The notes beneath the pieces were generated by a model that was not told the DNA's origin, made no database searches, and was given only the letters and a program-made list of their open reading frames with translations. Shown in pieces: positions 23,265-61,277 of a stretch of DNA of 64,000 nucleotides (positions are counted from its first letter, which is position 1; every line of letters starts with the position of its first letter). Location of the stretch: positions 496,001 through 560,000 of the forward strand of contig NZ_CP101509.1 of assembly GCF_024380015.1 (NCBI RefSeq), given 5' to 3'. The position numbers were made by a program, and so were the translations under genes. This stretch comes from Photobacterium atrarenae (GTDB taxonomy: Bacteria > Pseudomonadota > Gammaproteobacteria > Enterobacterales > Vibrionaceae).

Positions 23265-24170
23265 TCAGGAGCGAATGCGATCAGACCCCGGTTTAACCGT
23301 TGTCATTTGCAGCACGATTGTGGAGACAATCGAGAGGAGGATCCCGGGATAGACAGCAACCGGGATCGCTTTGCCTTCAAACAACAGCATCAGCACCGCG
23401 ACAAAGACCGGACTTAAATAGATATAGGCCATCACTTTTGCCGGCCCCAGAGCCACAGTGGTTTTGTGAATAATGAAGGTCGAGACCAGGGTGGCAAAGA
23501 AAGCAAGATAGAGCATATGGCCGGTCAGCCTGGCATCAAACCGAGCCCAGTCCAGCGGCTGCTCCAACACAAACAGCGCCAGTGCCATCCAAAGCGCGCC
23601 GCCGACCAGGGTACAAAAGACAGTCACCACGCTGTCTTCTCCCCGGTGAAACAGTTTCATCGACAGCGAAAAACAGACCATCGACACACATCCGAGCAAA
23701 AATAACCCGTCCCCCTGGTTAAGATTCAGGCTCAGTAATGTTGCCAGATCACCACGCACCACGACCCAGCAGGTCCCCGCGGCCCCGGTCAAATAGACCC
23801 CCAATCGCACAAGCGAAATGGTTTCCTTAAACAACAACACACTCGCCATCGCAGTGATAAACGGAACCAGGGTATATAACGTGCCGGTATTTAAAGCCGT
23901 GGTGGTTTCCAGCCCTTTAAACATGCAGATAAAAAAGATCGCAAAGAACAGGCTCATCACCAAACTTCTTGGAAAGACCCGAATCGCCATCCGGATCCGC
24001 GGTTTGGCCAGCAGAATGTAAGGCAGCAAAACCAGAGCCGCCAGCAAGAACCTGAGTAGCGTCAGGGAAAACGGATTCATCACGCCGGAGAGCTGCGCCG
24101 AAGAGAGAAAAGAACCGGCCACCAGCGCAGTGACCAATAAAGAGAGTAAATGATATTTCAGAGTGTTCAT
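23265..24170 (-). CDS. EamA/DMT-family exporter
   Basis: A protein of 301 residues with ten predicted membrane helices in two EamA halves (first half to about residue 135, second from about 150). The pattern FSLTLLRFLLAALVLLP and LNTGTLYTLVPFITAM is typical of drug/metabolite transporters. It faces the LysR gene at 22312 convergently. Substrate unknown; family members export amino acids, nucleosides or other metabolites. AAGG lies 6 nt before the ATG. Confidence 0.88.
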   Translation of the reverse strand: MNTLKYHLLSLLVTALVAGSFLSSAQLSGVMNPFSLTLLRFLLAALVLLPYILLAKPRIRMAIRVFPRSLVMSLFFAIFFICMFKGLETTTALNTGTLYTLVPFITAMASVLLFKETISLVRLGVYLTGAAGTCWVVVRGDLATLLSLNLNQGDGLFLLGCVSMVCFSLSMKLFHRGEDSVVTVFCTLVGGALWMALALFVLEQPLDWARFDARLTGHMLYLAFFATLVSTFIIHKTTVALGPAKVMAYIYLSPVFVAVLMLLFEGKAIPVAVYPGILLSIVSTIVLQMTTVKPGSDRIRS

Positions 24171-53679: not shown

Positions 53680-54189
53680 TTACTTAATATTAATCCGGTT
53701 TTCGCAGGCAAATTCCAGCATATCGCGTAGTTTAATCATGGCGTCGATATCCTGGCTCATCTCTTTTTTAATCTCTTCCAGCTCATTGGCGCTGACTTTG
53801 CCGTCAGACAGTGCTGCCCGAATTTCCTGCTGCACATCCCCGCGTTCTTTATCCCAGTCCATCCAGGCATTCAAAACATTACGGTAAGTGATCTCATGTA
53901 GCTCACCAGTCTCTATACGCTCACATTGAAGCCCGAAGAGCTTTAGCATTTCGTCCAGAATGAACACATGACGTTCTTCCTGCTGCAATACTTTCATGGT
54001 CAACATAAACTCCTGCAAAGTCAGCTGATGACCTGCCTGCGCCGGATTGATTTTATTGGAAAACGTCCGTGGACTGATGTTTTTTCCGCTCATCACTTTC
54101 ACTTCATTGAACAGCTTTTCTATACCGAATTCCTTACTCTGAAGATGAAGTGAGCGTGAAAAACCAGTCAGTAACGAATCTTTGTCCAT
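53680..54189 (-). CDS. Phage CII-like regulatory protein
   Basis: A protein of about 169 residues from the ATG ending at 54189 (MDKDSLLTGF); upstream in-frame ATGs at 54201 and 54240 exist and none has a strong ribosome site. SPRTFSNKINPAQAGHQLTLQEF resembles the DNA-binding region of the phage regulatory CII/CP76 family found in vibriophages and satellites. The C-terminal half is helical and acidic (SANELEEIKKEMSQD). No other phage gene is near, so it is an isolated or domesticated copy. Confidence 0.65.
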   Translation of the reverse strand: MDKDSLLTGFSRSLHLQSKEFGIEKLFNEVKVMSGKNISPRTFSNKINPAQAGHQLTLQEFMLTMKVLQQEERHVFILDEMLKLFGLQCERIETGELHEITYRNVLNAWMDWDKERGDVQQEIRAALSDGKVSANELEEIKKEMSQDIDAMIKLRDMLEFACENRINIK

Positions 54190-54240
54190 TCGGATTTCCA
54201 TAATGTTCAGGGTTACAAAACTAGGGCAATGATAGGGCAA

Positions 54241-56129: not shown

Positions 56130-58145
56130 TCAGCCAGACAAGCCGGGACCGGCCCGAACCACATGGGGAAAGATCGCTTCGATTTCCCTATACATAGCGT
56201 CCGGATCCCCTTCATAACGCCGGGAGAAATGAAACGGTACCAGCTGATTCACGTTTGCAGCGAGAGCAATTTCCCCGCAGGCGGTGGTTGTCAGGTGGCC
56301 GTTATTGCGCCCGCGCCATAGATCCTGATGCGAAAATGCCGCTTCGCAGATCAGCGTGTCAGCATCACGGGCCAGTGCAATCAGCTTACGTCGGTTCTCA
56401 GGGGTATCGGCGAGATCAGTGGCGTAAACCAGCTTCTTCCCGGCCTGCTTCTCGATCAACTGTGATGCCAGAGTGCTGACCGTACACGCCTCCCCGTTGG
56501 GTAAGGTGATCAAATCATCCAGCTCGCCGGCAAGATAGCAATGCTTGAGTTTGCCCAGCCAACGATCCGGCGGATACGGCATGGCTTGCAGCACCTGCTC
56601 GGAAATCCGAATGGACTCCACCGGCTCATAAGCGTAAGCAAGAACGGGCGTCCCGTGATCCAACTCGACTGCGCGGATCAAAAACCTGGCTTCCTGGTGG
56701 ATCACGCCCTGATGAACCGTTTGCTCCGGCAATACATCAACCTGCTTGTAACCGGCCTTGAGCCGGTAGCATCGCAACGTCTTACCATGTAACTCAGCTA
56801 CCTCAAACTCCGGCCCATTCTCGCCGATGCGATCCCATAAGATCCCGCTCAGCATCCCAGCCACATGCAACGCCAACCCGGGGGGGCCAAACAGCTTGCA
56901 AGGCGATGGCGTACCAAGCCGTACCCGTAACAGCCCCATAAACCCGCCGATGTGGTCAAAATGGGCGTGAGTAATAAAAATGTGGCTGACATGATGGCTA
57001 AAGCGCATGGGTAAACGGATCGTATTGCCTAAATCAAACAAAATGCAGCGACGACTCCAGTGGGTTTTAATCAGCAACAGCGGATCTTCAAACAAACCAT
57101 TCACCAACTCGGCAGTCATATCCCGTTGTTTGATCGGCGGGCTGCGATCCACTACTTTGGTCCGGTGGGCATACACCAGGGAAGGTTTACGATTGGATGG
57201 AACCGGTTGGATGTGGGGCGTATGACGAACCGTACGCAATTTATGGCCGGGCAAGTGTCTGGCGTCCCGGAGCAAGATCTGACTCGGTGGTCGCAGTTGC
57301 AACAGCGATTGTTGGGCTATGTGCGGCACCGGACAGCGCAGCCTGATGTCTTGTGACGCCAACGCCACCACCTCCCCCATGGTTAACTGGCCCTTGTGAT
57401 CACTGAGCCGGACCAGCAGCCCCGGCCAGCGCTCGGGATCGTTTTGTGGCGGTGGCGTCCCTAATATCGACAGCATATGCAACGGCAGCTCTAACTCAAC
57501 CGATTGTGCCATATAGTGCTGCCATAGCCGGGTCCGCCAGTCCAGCCGTTCGCTACGCTGGATCAGGCGGGCCTGCGGTGATGGTGACAACCAGAGTACA
57601 GGGCAAGATAGGCTGGAAATGACAGGCATCACTTCCGCCACCTGTTCGCGCTCCGCCAACACCACCAGCCGGGACGCCGCCGTGCGGGCCACCAGGGTCT
57701 GCAACATTTCTGCCGCAGCCACGCCCTGGGTCATCCCCGGCGCATCTATCAGACACGGGGTATGCTCCGGAGCACTGCGCATCAATTGTCCAACAGCTTC
57801 AGACAACGGCAGGCGAAAACGCGCCGCATCCAGACTGCAGAGCCCTTCAAACTCAAGCAACTGCCAGTTGTCCTGGTGGCTGTTCTCCAGACGCCTATGT
57901 CCTAGACGCCATTGCCCCAGATTAACCGCCGCCGGTACGCCAAAGCTCGGCGTTCCCGGATCCGCGCTCAGGCATAAACACTCACGACCGGCAGCTGACA
58001 ACCGCCGGGCCAGCTCGGCGGCCAAAAAGCTTTTGCCAGCCCCGGTCGGACCGAAGATCAGGATACGTTCTGCCTTGTGCAACAGCTTTTCATGAAGCAG
58101 CGCCACACCGTGATGGTATGAGAACCTTGTCGTCGGTGCCTCCAT
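56130..58145 (-). CDS. Fusion of Clp1/Grc3-like polynucleotide kinase with RNase Z-like nuclease
   Basis: A protein of 671 residues made of two domains not normally in one chain. Residues 1-300: P-loop kinase of the Clp1/Grc3 type, with Walker A GPTGAGKS (32-39), SADPGTPSFGVPAAVNLG (61-78, the acceptor-side motif of the family) and Walker B LIDAPG (132-137). Residues 340-671: RNase Z-like metallo-beta-lactamase domain, with THAHFDH (392-398), His in ELDHGTP (about 497), YATD (Asp577), NGHLTT (His617) and PFHFSRRY (His639), so all metal-binding residues are kept. RNase Z cuts RNA 3' of the tRNA body; Clp1-type kinases phosphorylate 5'-OH RNA ends. The gene is 44 bp behind rtcB in the same direction. 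Confidence 0.85.
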   Translation of the reverse strand: MEAPTTRFSYHHGVALLHEKLLHKAERILIFGPTGAGKSFLAAELARRLSAAGRECLCLSADPGTPSFGVPAAVNLGQWRLGHRRLENSHQDNWQLLEFEGLCSLDAARFRLPLSEAVGQLMRSAPEHTPCLIDAPGMTQGVAAAEMLQTLVARTAASRLVVLAEREQVAEVMPVISSLSCPVLWLSPSPQARLIQRSERLDWRTRLWQHYMAQSVELELPLHMLSILGTPPPQNDPERWPGLLVRLSDHKGQLTMGEVVALASQDIRLRCPVPHIAQQSLLQLRPPSQILLRDARHLPGHKLRTVRHTPHIQPVPSNRKPSLVYAHRTKVVDRSPPIKQRDMTAELVNGLFEDPLLLIKTHWSRRCILFDLGNTIRLPMRFSHHVSHIFITHAHFDHIGGFMGLLRVRLGTPSPCKLFGPPGLALHVAGMLSGILWDRIGENGPEFEVAELHGKTLRCYRLKAGYKQVDVLPEQTVHQGVIHQEARFLIRAVELDHGTPVLAYAYEPVESIRISEQVLQAMPYPPDRWLGKLKHCYLAGELDDLITLPNGEACTVSTLASQLIEKQAGKKLVYATDLADTPENRRKLIALARDADTLICEAAFSHQDLWRGRNNGHLTTTACGEIALAANVNQLVPFHFSRRYEGDPDAMYREIEAIFPHVVRAGPGLSG

Positions 58146-58178
58146 GTCTCCCCCAGCGGTTCAGTGAAGTCACTATCT

Positions 58179-58194
58179 GTTAAGTATACTTAAC
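58179..58194. promoter_or_regulatory. 16-bp perfect palindrome across the rtcB stop codon
   Basis: GTTAAGTATACTTAAC spans the TAA of rtcB and the start of the 44-bp gap before the fusion gene. It is either a protein-binding dyad or a fold that affects read-through into the fusion gene. No further support. Confidence 0.3.
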
Positions 58195-59386
58195 CTTTGA
58201 TATTCACAATTTGCCTCAGGGTGTGGACAATATCGACCAAGTCACACTGATTGGCCATTACCGTGTCGATGTCTTTGTATGCCGTCGGAATTTCATCAAT
58301 CACACCCTTGTCTTTTCGGCATTCTATGCCGGCGGTCTGGGCCTTCAGATCGCTGACGGTGTGCAATTTTTTCGCCTGGGTCCGCGACATGCGACGTCCG
58401 GCACCATGACTGCAGCTACAAAAAGCCTCCGGATTACCGAGCCCGCGCACCACATATGAATTAGTGCCCATGCTACCGGGGATCACCCCAAGATCGCCGA
58501 CCCGGGCCCGAATCGCCCCTTTACGAGTCACCCAGACCTCCCGGCCGAAATGCACCTCGCGCTCAATATAGTTATGGTGACAGTTAATCGCTTCCTGGGT
58601 CACGGTGAATGGTGGTAACAGCCGCGCCATGCGTTTCAGCGCCGCGTCCATCATCAGCGCCCGATTCAACCGGGCATAAGCCTGCGCCCAGCTCACTGCA
58701 TCCACATAGCCCTGATAATTCCGGGCTCCTTCTTCGAAATACGCCAGGTCGGCATCGGGCAGGTGAATATGATGGCGCTCCATATCGCGCTTAGCCTGGG
58801 CAATAAAATAACGGCCTATCGCATTGCCAATGCCCCGGCTGCCGGAGTGGAGCATCACCCAAAGATCGTCGGCCTCATCCAGGCAGAGCTCAAAAAAGTG
58901 ATTGCCGCCGCCCAGGGTCCCGGCCTGATGGGCCCAGCGGCCGGGTTTGACCATCTTCCGCAATTCCGGATTAGCCTGAAGGATCTGCTCGAGCTGAACA
59001 GCCAGCGGGGAATCGCCACGGATCCGGGGCCTCTGATGCTCCTGCCCCGGCCCAAGCGGGATCACCGATTCCAACTCCTGGCGCAGCATCCGGCAGCTGT
59101 CCGGCAAATCGGCAGCGGTCAGCGACAGGCGCACCGCATTGATCCCGCAGCCGATATCCACCCCAACCGCTGCCGGAATAATCGCCCTGACGGTAGAAAT
59201 CACACTACCAATGGTCGCCCCTTTGCCCAAATGAACATCCGGCATCCCGGCAACATGATGATAAATAAACGGTAAGGAAGCGGTGTGCTTGAGCTGCAAG
59301 GCCGTCTGGTCATCTAGATCATCGGTCCAGACCTTAACCGGATGCAGCTGCTTGCCTTGCGGCGGGTAAAAGGTAGAAACCGGCAT
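58190..59386 (-). CDS. rtcB: RtcB RNA ligase
   Basis: A protein of about 398 residues from the ATG ending at 59386, which has GGAGG upstream; a GTG at 59401 is less likely. All RtcB manganese ligands and the guanylylated His are visible: VGVDIGCGINAVR (Cys about 80), GGGNHFFEL (His about 163), LHSGSRG (His about 180), CHHNY (about 270) and CSCSHGAGRRMSR with nucleophile His about 327. RtcB joins RNA ends having 2',3'-cyclic phosphate or 3'-phosphate to 5'-OH, using GTP. No rtcA or sigma-54-type rtcR gene is in view. Upstream gene of the pair with the kinase/RNase Z fusion; divergent from a TrmO-type gene. Confidence 0.95.
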   Translation of the reverse strand: MPVSTFYPPQGKQLHPVKVWTDDLDDQTALQLKHTASLPFIYHHVAGMPDVHLGKGATIGSVISTVRAIIPAAVGVDIGCGINAVRLSLTAADLPDSCRMLRQELESVIPLGPGQEHQRPRIRGDSPLAVQLEQILQANPELRKMVKPGRWAHQAGTLGGGNHFFELCLDEADDLWVMLHSGSRGIGNAIGRYFIAQAKRDMERHHIHLPDADLAYFEEGARNYQGYVDAVSWAQAYARLNRALMMDAALKRMARLLPPFTVTQEAINCHHNYIEREVHFGREVWVTRKGAIRARVGDLGVIPGSMGTNSYVVRGLGNPEAFCSCSHGAGRRMSRTQAKKLHTVSDLKAQTAGIECRKDKGVIDEIPTAYKDIDTVMANQCDLVDIVHTLRQIVNIKG

Positions 59387-59535
59387 GGGAGATGCCTCCA
59401 CAGAGCGAGCATTTGTCTCCCTTGAGTATATGCGCCCTGGTCGTAAACAAGCAGCGTCGATTTAGTCAGTTCTTCGCAGCTCGGCGAGGAAATGCTATTG
59501 TCATCCGTGAATATTCAGAAGGAGCCAGTCATTCA

Positions 59536-60030
59536 ATGAAGCATGGAAAAATTACGGTAGAGCCTGTTGGCCAAGTTGTTTCGACCAGAGCTAAAGCAAT
59601 TGATGATCATTGGGATGAAGAAACAAGTGCTATCATCATCAGTGACACGTTCAAGTCAGAAGTGCTATCCGGCCTTGCCGACTTCTCTCACATTGAGGTG
59701 CTTTACTATTTTAACCAAGTCGATGAATCAAGAATTACCGTTGGCGCACGCCATCCGAGAAATAACCCTGACTGGCCAAAGGTGGGAATATTTGCACAAC
59801 GGGGTAAAAACAGACCCAACCGGTTGGGCGTCACCATTTGTCGCGTTCTTGCGGTCAAGGGGAACGAGATACAAGTCCATGGTTTAGACGCCATCGATGG
59901 CACTCCAGTCATCGATATCAAACCCGTGATGAAAGAATTTCTGCCAAGAGAGCCTGTCAAACAGCCTGTCTGGTCCGAAGAAATCATGTCCAACTACTGG
60001 GCGCCGACGAGCAAACCCGATCATGAATAG
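59536..60030 (+). CDS. TrmO/TsaA-family tRNA methyltransferase
   Basis: A protein of 164 residues starting at the ATG at 59536; the frame extends upstream but without coding character. It has the TsaA/YaeB beta-barrel fold: PVGQVVST at the N-terminus, FSHIEVLYYFNQVD, GIFAQRGKNRPNRLGVTICRV (in part RGKNRPNRLG), and GLDAIDGTPVIDIKPV. The founding member TrmO makes the N6-methyl group of m6t6A37 in tRNA-Thr using SAM. It is shorter than E. coli TrmO (no C-terminal domain), so the substrate could differ. Divergent from rtcB. Confidence 0.82.
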   Translation: MKHGKITVEPVGQVVSTRAKAIDDHWDEETSAIIISDTFKSEVLSGLADFSHIEVLYYFNQVDESRITVGARHPRNNPDWPKVGIFAQRGKNRPNRLGVTICRVLAVKGNEIQVHGLDAIDGTPVIDIKPVMKEFLPREPVKQPVWSEEIMSNYWAPTSKPDHE

Positions 60031-60182: not shown

Positions 60183-61277
60183 CTACGCACACATCCTGGC
60201 TTCTTCCCGGAACAGGGTAAACCGCTGCTGTGCATCCGGCTGATCAAAGTACTGCTGCAGCGCCTCCACACACAACGGATCCAACTTCCCATGATCCGCC
60301 ATCGCCTGAAGCTCAGTGAGAGCCTGCTCAAGTGTCCAGGCTTTCTTGTAGGGCCTGTCACTGGTCAGCGCATCGAAGATATCCGAAACCGTGACAATAC
60401 GGGAGAAGAGGCTGATCTCCTCCCCTTTCAATCCCTCCGGATAACCACTGCCGTCCAGCATCTCATGGTGTTCGCTGATCAGCGTCCGAATGATGCGATA
60501 CGCTTCATGCTGCTTGACGACCCCGTCGCAGGCAGCATCCACCATCGTCATCCCGTACTCCACATGTCGCTTCATTTCCCGAAATTCCTCGGCGGTCAGC
60601 CGACCGGGCTTGAGTAAAATATCATCCGCGACACCAATCTTGCCGATATCGTGCAAGGGGGAGAATTTGATCAGGTAATAAACTTCCCGGTCCGTGACCG
60701 GGCAATGCTGAACCACATGACGGGCGATAATACGTGTCAGTGTCGTCAGCCGACCACAGTGCATCGCGGTACATTCATCGCGAATTTCTGAGGCCTTCTC
60801 AGAAAACTTACTCAACGACACAATGTTGTCGAACAGAGTACGCTCATGAATGATGCTCTCGCGCAGTGACTTTACCGTGTCATCAAGCGTGGCTACGGTC
60901 AGCGGATTAAAAAACGCCTTGTTGCAGGAATTAAAAAAGATAAACCCGAGAAAATTGTTCTGAAAAAAGATCGGGATCGTATAAGACGAATGCAATTGGC
61001 TCTCACGCAGCCAGGCACTAGCTTTACCGCGACACTGACGCAGGTAACTGGAATAATCATCCACAATCCGGGTTTTCTTCTGCCGAACCAGTGCACTCAG
61101 CGACGGGGATTTTTCCAGCGGGATACTATGGTGCTTGAGCGGTTGAATGCCCTCCGTCGAATCAACATACGTTCTGAGATAGGCTTCATCCACCAGGGCG
61201 ATCGAGATCCGGTGCAACCCCTCCAGCCCAGTCTCAATCAACTCCCTATGCAACTGCCTCACTGTCTCCCTGAGCAT
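60183..61277 (-). CDS. HD-GYP domain cyclic-di-GMP phosphodiesterase with GAF-like sensor
   Basis: A protein of 364 residues. The N-terminal half (about 1-150) is a GAF-like fold (VDDYSSYLR, SSYTIPIFFQNNFLGFIFFN; core TIPIFFQNNFLGFIF). The C-terminal HD-GYP domain keeps HD in SPLHDIGKIG, ISEHHEMLDGSGYPEGL (GYP intact) and VSDIFDALTS. It hydrolyses cyclic di-GMP and so promotes motility over biofilm. There is no membrane segment, so the sensor is cytosolic. Confidence 0.9.
   Translation of the reverse strand: MLRETVRQLHRELIETGLEGLHRISIALVDEAYLRTYVDSTEGIQPLKHHSIPLEKSPSLSALVRQKKTRIVDDYSSYLRQCRGKASAWLRESQLHSSYTIPIFFQNNFLGFIFFNSCNKAFFNPLTVATLDDTVKSLRESIIHERTLFDNIVSLSKFSEKASEIRDECTAMHCGRLTTLTRIIARHVVQHCPVTDREVYYLIKFSPLHDIGKIGVADDILLKPGRLTAEEFREMKRHVEYGMTMVDAACDGVVKQHEAYRIIRTLISEHHEMLDGSGYPEGLKGEEISLFSRIVTVSDIFDALTSDRPYKKAWTLEQALTELQAMADHGKLDPLCVEALQQYFDQPDAQQRFTLFREEARMCA

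Follow-up and report, generated by a model that had tools for sequence, protein, structure and literature searches.

Genomic context of the fusion gene

We analysed a stretch of 64,000 nucleotides from Photobacterium atrarenae (NCBI RefSeq assembly GCF_024380015.1, contig NZ_CP101509.1, positions 496,001 to 560,000 of the forward strand), referred to here as the window. On its minus strand lies a gene for a 671-residue protein which joins a Clp1/Grc3-type P-loop domain to an RNase Z-type metallo-β-lactamase (MBL) domain. The gene directly upstream is rtcB, encoding an RNA ligase. The features of the locus, in window positions, are:

56130..58145, minus strand: kinase-MBL fusion gene, 671 residues (Pfam and NCBIfam matches, alignment of 31 fusions)
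57510..58055, minus strand: Clp1/Grc3-type P-loop domain, residues 31-212 (Pfam PF16575, E 3e-12)
58029..58052, minus strand: Walker A, residues 32-39 (no variation at G32, G35, G37 and K38 among 31 fusions)
56160..57122, minus strand: RNase Z-type MBL domain, residues 342-662 (NF002558, 261.6 bits; invariant metal-ligand positions)
56451..56648 (approximate limits), minus strand: approximately residues 500-565, which align with the flexible arm by which RNase Z binds tRNA
58146..58189, minus strand: 44 bp separating rtcB from the fusion gene, with a ribosome-binding-like GGGGGAG directly before the fusion ATG
58190..59386, minus strand: rtcB, coding for a short-type RNA ligase of 398 residues (PF01139, E 7.6e-125; ATG start preferred)

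The motifs which the first-pass annotation had read in the fusion were all located where it placed them, namely the Walker A sequence GPTGAGKS (32-39), LIDAPG (132-137), THAHFDH (392-398), YATD (574-577), GHLTT (616-620) and HFSRRY (639-644), as was the spacing of 44 bp behind rtcB (58146-58189). Its locus span holds for both open reading frames (ORFs), but the upper end probably needs correction. The rtcB ORF as listed covers 58190-59401 (minus strand) with a GTG start at 59401, while the ATG at 59386 (MPVSTFYPP) is the more likely start.

The neighbouring RtcB scores 417.9 bits against PF01139, above the cut-off. DIGCG, GGGNHF, HSGSRG, CHHNY and SHGAGR are all readable in its ORF, and we take these to be the Cys/His motifs of the ligase. 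RtcB is common to the window and the rtcBA operon, whereas we found no RTC-family match to RtcA in the window genome at E ≤ 1e-20. The 5′ kinase is extra here and its predicted product would be unusable by RtcB. The fusion adjoins rtcB, or rtcA in the case of P. marinum and one distant genome (G104).

The kinase half

The Pfam CLP1_P domain matched residues 31-212 with 47.2 bits against a cut-off of 26.6 (E 3e-12). For the alignment we used 31 full-length fusions, i.e. the window protein and 30 proteins with 42-84% identity to it. In their kinase half G32, G35, G37, K38, D62, G64, P66, D134, P136, G137 and R204 are invariant; they include the Walker A residues and residues of the clasp type. 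A profile search of solved structures recovered GRC3 (2.7e-6) and clpf-1 (4e-4). The search with PF16573 (CLP1_N) gave zero matches in the fusions and in the controls alike and was uninformative.

In a survey of complete genomes, Saito et al. 2019 (PMC6777427) reported Clp1 from 14 of 1,543 bacterial species. The Thermus scotoductus protein Ts-Clp1 phosphorylates RNA (PMC6777427), which favours the function proposed below, and it carries its CLP1_P kinase domain near the N-terminus, like the fusion. The surveyed bacterial proteins average 333 residues compared to the 671 of the fusion. An RNase Z fusion is not described among them, and the words "lactamase" and "RNase Z" are absent from the main text of that survey (PMC6777427).

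The MBL half

The C-terminal half matched Lactamase_B_2 (E 9.1e-14). It scored 261.6 bits against NF002558/PRK02126 "ribonuclease Z" and 115.3 bits against TIGR02651 RNase_Z, below the respective cut-offs of 315 and 292.95. The metal-ligand motifs I-V are all present (D371, HxHxDH at 393-398, H497, D577 and H639), and D371, H393, H395, D397, H398, H497, D577, E601, H617 and H639 are invariant in the 31 fusions. The best structure profile matches were 1y44 (2.7e-25) and ELAC1 3zwf (9.5e-19), and the flexible-arm region can be aligned with 1y44. Judged by sequence, both halves of the fusion look active. Since the 31 fusions can be aligned over their full length and do not vary at the catalytic positions, the joining of the two domains is more than chance.

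Bacterial-type tRNase Z is characterized by motifs I-V, a flexible arm with a GP motif (GxPxGP), PxKxRN, HEAT and HST, and PxKxRN has been tied to the inhibition of the enzyme by CCA (PMC3161902). We compared these features with the fusions. The loop reads PTPxRN in two canonical RNase Z proteins and is absent in the five fusions and five standalone relatives aligned with them, all of which retain the metal ligands and the arm region. The arm carries GPW in 23 of the 31 fusions by our own count, and PPDRW in the window protein. There HEAT has become CEAA and HST has become HLT, with Glu601 and His617 retained. By these sequence features the MBL half is not a canonical RNase Z. It has an MBL nuclease-type domain and a region alignable with the flexible arm in common with canonical bacterial-type RNase Z/ELAC1, but lacks the PxKxRN loop and carries variant HEAT and HST motifs. 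Its nearest kin are the standalone PRK02126/NF002558 proteins, which have no kinase half. The four fused MBLs that were scanned scored 261-285 bits against NF002558, while the standalone relatives reached 351-464 bits (cut-off 315).

An encoded CCA follows all 83 readable tRNA matches in the window genome (87 looked at; 150 of 314 candidates of the genome-wide search were scored). With CCA encoded in the tRNA genes, a CCA-sensitive RNase Z would find little work. ARAGORN also gave an odd 91-base tRNA-Thr at 23518-23608 (minus strand), which is not among the 150 scored tRNA-family matches and is probably false.

Distribution

A protein search, in which 8,000 candidates were scored, returned at least 904 relatives at E ≤ 1e-3. 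Both Pfam domains are present in 118 of the 120 relatives listed (own count), and the genera listed include Photobacterium, Marinobacterium, Halomonas, Methylobacter, Nitrosomonas and Thiodiazotropha. Their database names are "Clp1/GlmU family protein", "MBL fold metallo-hydrolase" and, once, "ribonuclease BN / polynucleotide 5′-kinase" (P0087), so the architecture is already visible to automatic annotation. The first-pass annotation knew of no such fusion as a characterized enzyme. Kinase-MBL fusions are found in many bacteria. We found no paper titled on the fusion in the literature on Clp1/RtcB with RNase Z or metallo-β-lactamase, where an earlier mention is possible.

Among 369 genomes of the class, 33 gave a match at E ≤ 1e-20. 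These comprise 14 full fusions, the window's included, three pieces at contig ends (G370, G347 and G121) and 16 apparent standalone MBLs with 29-37% identity, a class assigned by length and identity (NF002558 was checked for G230, G180 and G368, and all three pass). The full fusions and the contig-end pieces together make up the 17 fusion genomes referred to below. Of 299 genomes of the phylum, two that belong to another class carry a full fusion, both from a single genus (G471 and G558). The database relatives and these genomes rule out that the fusion is unique.

The fusion might be a housekeeping enzyme, with an RNase Z for tRNA 3′ maturation, an accessory kinase and an adjacency to rtcB that arose by chance. 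Among full-length RNase Z-type matches in the window genome, the fusion ranks first. Canonical RNase Z was detected in 11 of the 369 genomes of the class, the 17 with a fusion not among them, at a threshold (E ≤ 1e-40) that also missed five of 14 control genomes. We consider housekeeping very improbable.

In Photobacterium five of 36 genomes have the full fusion and a sixth (G003) has a remnant, so the fusion is dispensable in the genus. The remnant (L063, 6900-7025) encodes only the last 42 residues, and rtcA and most of the fusion are gone. Its flanking genes look the same as those around the rtcA-fusion pair of P. marinum (L004). In another locus (L005, 1522-3490, draft contig) the fusion frame is broken near residue 257.

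We found no full fusion on 72,556 plasmid and 50,697 phage records, nor in a viral-contig scan with two MBL patterns, and these scans speak against carriage by mobile elements. Standalone PRK02126-like genes occur on four plasmids, with no rtcB in their annotated flanks. On a Limimaricola plasmid (L115, 5977-7626) such a match lies inside a longer coding sequence named "GXWXG domain protein", perhaps another fusion.

A patchy occurrence would suit a horizontally spread device for tRNA rescue or abortive defence, aimed at ribotoxins, anticodon nucleases or phages. Such a device could explain why the fusion is present in five of 36 congeners, the fusion remnant in G003 and the rtcB remnant in a further locus (L002), and a Phage_CP76-domain gene lies about 2 kb from the fusion. 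Against this, PADLOC-DB gave nothing beyond a weak P-loop match to mad8 (21.5 bits), and the plasmid, phage and viral-contig scans were without a full fusion. A rescue or defence role is unlikely.

Origin of the fusion

We built separate trees of the two halves. Both gave the same 13/18 split, with support of 93/97 for the kinase and 100/99 for the MBL half, and both recovered the same six-row group that includes Photobacterium and the same three-row group that includes Marinobacterium. A further MBL tree contained two canonical RNase Z proteins as the outgroup, 17 standalone rows (two of them the same gene) and 24 fused MBLs, two of which are pieces with the kinase half beyond the contig end. 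The fused MBLs form one clade (100/100) on a long branch, nested within the standalone PRK02126-like proteins. The agreement between the half-trees and the single clade of fused MBLs fit a single fusion event. A chance ORF or a misassembly is ruled out by the agreement of the half-trees and by the two Pfam domains in 118 of the 120 listed relatives.

In one genome (G230) clp1 (312 amino acids, CLP1_P 110.7 bits) and, directly downstream on the same strand, PRK02126 are separate, unfused genes. Since its standalone MBL falls outside the fused group, kinase and MBL seem to have come together more than once.

Linkage to rtcB and rtcA

The first-pass annotation had placed the fusion in an operon with rtcB. 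We read seven fusion loci in Photobacterium. An intact rtcB lies directly upstream of the fusion in four of them (the window, G032, L003 and L005). In L001 it lies 1.4 kb upstream with an opposing gene in between, and in L002 it is reduced to a 44-residue remnant. In P. marinum (L004) rtcA is found 4 bp upstream of the fusion and rtcB is elsewhere in the genome. The distant genome G104 also has rtcA directly upstream, and one of the two genomes of its order available for comparison has the fusion. In G111 rtcA and rtcB are 9 kb and 11 kb away. Direct adjacency to rtcB was seen in Photobacterium only, with rtcA in its place in G104, and linkage outside the genus comes from few genomes. In G104 the next gene upstream of the rtcA-fusion pair (L051, 5478-6746) encodes a PEP-utilizers-domain protein of 423 amino acids.

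Across the class, with genomes treated as independent and every PF01139 subtype counted, rtcB is present in 15 of the 17 fusion genomes (12 of the 14 with a full fusion) versus 110 of 352 others (p 3.4e-6; p 8.8e-6 when the window genome is left out). For rtcA the counts are 7/17 versus 27/352 (p 3e-4). The 16 standalone-MBL genomes have rtcB in 14 cases and rtcA in eight. Within Photobacterium an intact rtcB accompanies the fusion in four of five genomes versus four of 31 (p 0.005).

The RtcBs of the 15 rtcB-bearing fusion genomes are of two types, 11 long and four short, the latter being the type in the window. In the RtcB tree the six rows from Photobacterium fusion genomes form one clade, separate from congeners without the full fusion. 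A class-wide tie between RtcB type and fusion is ruled out, as the 51-row tree with controls needs four label changes. The RtcBs of G407, G347 and G369, with identities of 60-61%, are not special in that tree. Long archease-type RtcBs (including that of G029, L171), matches below 396 bits, fragments and the broken copy of G249 were left out of it.

Yeast Grc3-Las1 processes rRNA, and the fusion could similarly act on rRNA or another RNA, with rtcB as its neighbour in Photobacterium by descent only. Such hitchhiking agrees with the restriction of direct rtcB linkage to this genus and with the single clade of six RtcBs. It does not explain why rtcA is directly upstream in the unrelated G104 and in P. 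marinum, or why rtcB and rtcA are enriched among fusion genomes, and we regard it as very unlikely.

Proposed function

We tentatively propose, as a reading that is quite possible, that the fusion is an RNA end-processing enzyme with two heads, working most likely on tRNA that is broken or misprocessed, and that it belongs to RtcB/RtcA-type repair networks. The Clp1/Grc3-type half would phosphorylate 5′-OH RNA ends with ATP as the donor. The RNase Z-like half would grip the tRNA elbow by its arm and hydrolyse the 3′ end, either a phosphodiester or a 2′,3′-cyclic phosphate, to leave a 3′-OH, and CCA would not halt it.

RNase Z cleavage leaves a 3′-OH and a 5′-phosphate (PMC9181182), so the kinase would find nothing to phosphorylate in the product of its partner. 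It should instead act on the 5′-OH ends of other breaks, made by other nucleases, which are the ends that RtcB joins. Because these ends are shared, rtcB and the fusion can be read as two competing outlets for breaks with 2′,3′-cyclic phosphate and 5′-OH ends: RtcB would seal them and the fusion would divert them. RtcB cannot use a 5′-phosphate (PMC8935212), and phosphorylation would make the end unusable for it and lead to trimming and decay. The fusion might in this way decide whether broken RNAs get resealed or discarded. The choice between sealing and decay that was suggested at first is partly supported: it gains from the inability of RtcB to use the kinase product (PMC8935212) and loses from the patchy rtcB linkage. 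The analysis shows the domains and their conserved catalytic positions, a tree compatible with one fusion, the missing PxKxRN loop, the operon-like layout and the co-occurrence with rtcB and rtcA; both enzyme activities, the tRNA substrate, the insensitivity to CCA and the antagonism to RtcB are inferred.

A bolder version, possible but doubtful, is that the fusions are a widespread, unrecognized class of RtcB antagonists, in which elbow recognition, 5′-OH phosphorylation and clipping of CCA would lead to the decay of fragments. In animals the kinase activity of CLP1 is described as a negative regulator of exon ligation (PMC8935212), which also favours the two-headed enzyme proposed above. The fusion would be a counterpart of this restraint on RtcB, here joined to its own tRNA-recognizing nuclease.

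Several results weigh against the two-headed repair enzyme. The co-occurrence tests ignore kinship, and among rtcB-bearing genomes the difference in rtcA is not significant (6/15 with the fusion versus 27/110, p 0.17). We did not find rtcB in two fusion genomes (G126, 95% complete, and G394, 75%), and P. alginatilyticum retains the fusion with a remnant of rtcB only. For 11 of the 13 class genomes outside Photobacterium with a full fusion, the parts that were read, in some cases short contigs, contain neither rtcB nor rtcA, and the same holds for the stretch read from Halomonas urmiana (L006). The RtcB tree mixes distant fusion genomes with fusion-less ones. Finally, P-loop proteins, among them midasin and ArsA, gave better E-values than GRC3 at the Walker A stretch in the structure profile search, so the Clp1 assignment leans mainly on Pfam.

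The main rival is a heal-and-seal pathway. Here the kinase would provide the 5′-phosphate, the MBL half would remove the 2′,3′-cyclic phosphate to give a 3′-OH, and a separate 5′-phosphate/3′-OH ligase would join the ends beside RtcB. The fusion would then correspond to T4 Pnkp or to the kinase-CPDase portion of Trl1. T4 Pnkp, Trl1 and Pnkp-Rnl-Hen1 likewise join a 5′-OH kinase to a 3′-end activity, but they are built from unrelated domains and their partner ligase wants a 5′-phosphate. A reported role of human ELAC1 in the repair of cleaved tRNAs speaks for this pathway. The kinase and MBL activities are the pair that it requires, and plants and fungi have a single enzyme for 5′-end phosphorylation, opening of the cyclic phosphate and ligation (PMC6614914). 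However, the Pfam search of the fusion revealed no ligase domain (no search was made for separate 5′-phosphate/3′-OH ligases), and the ligase next door, RtcB, cannot use a 5′-phosphate (PMC8935212). A healing role of the fusion in such a pathway is rather unlikely.

The operon pairs RtcB with an enzyme whose predicted product it cannot use. The proposed choice between resealing and discarding can therefore be tested with two proteins and a cut tRNA. The RNase Z-like branch formed by PRK02126 and its fused sister group is marked by the loss of a loop implicated in sparing CCA-bearing tRNAs, and it tends to be found in genomes with rtcB. Genes labelled "ribonuclease Z" or "MBL fold" may be factors of RNA repair or RNA disposal.

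Other features of the locus

A scan for sigma-70 promoters and terminators gave counts not above those of shuffled sequence. No strict sigma-54 -24/-12 match was present upstream of rtcB in four loci; RtcR was not sought. A perfect 16-bp palindrome, GTTAAGTATACTTAAC, spans the rtcB stop at 58179-58194 (minus strand). It is unchanged in the sister locus L059 and altered in L003 and L005.

The divergent neighbour of rtcB (59536-60027, plus strand) encodes a TrmO_N domain of the tRNA methyltransferase type (E 2.8e-25), of which the sister locus L059 has a 42-residue match only. An HD_5-domain (HD-GYP-like) gene lies at 60183-61277 (minus strand); L059, L002 and L003 have likewise retained it upstream of the rtcB-fusion locus. 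The gene with the Phage_CP76 (phage regulatory CII) domain, located past the 3′ end of the fusion at 53680-54240 (minus strand), is also retained in L059.

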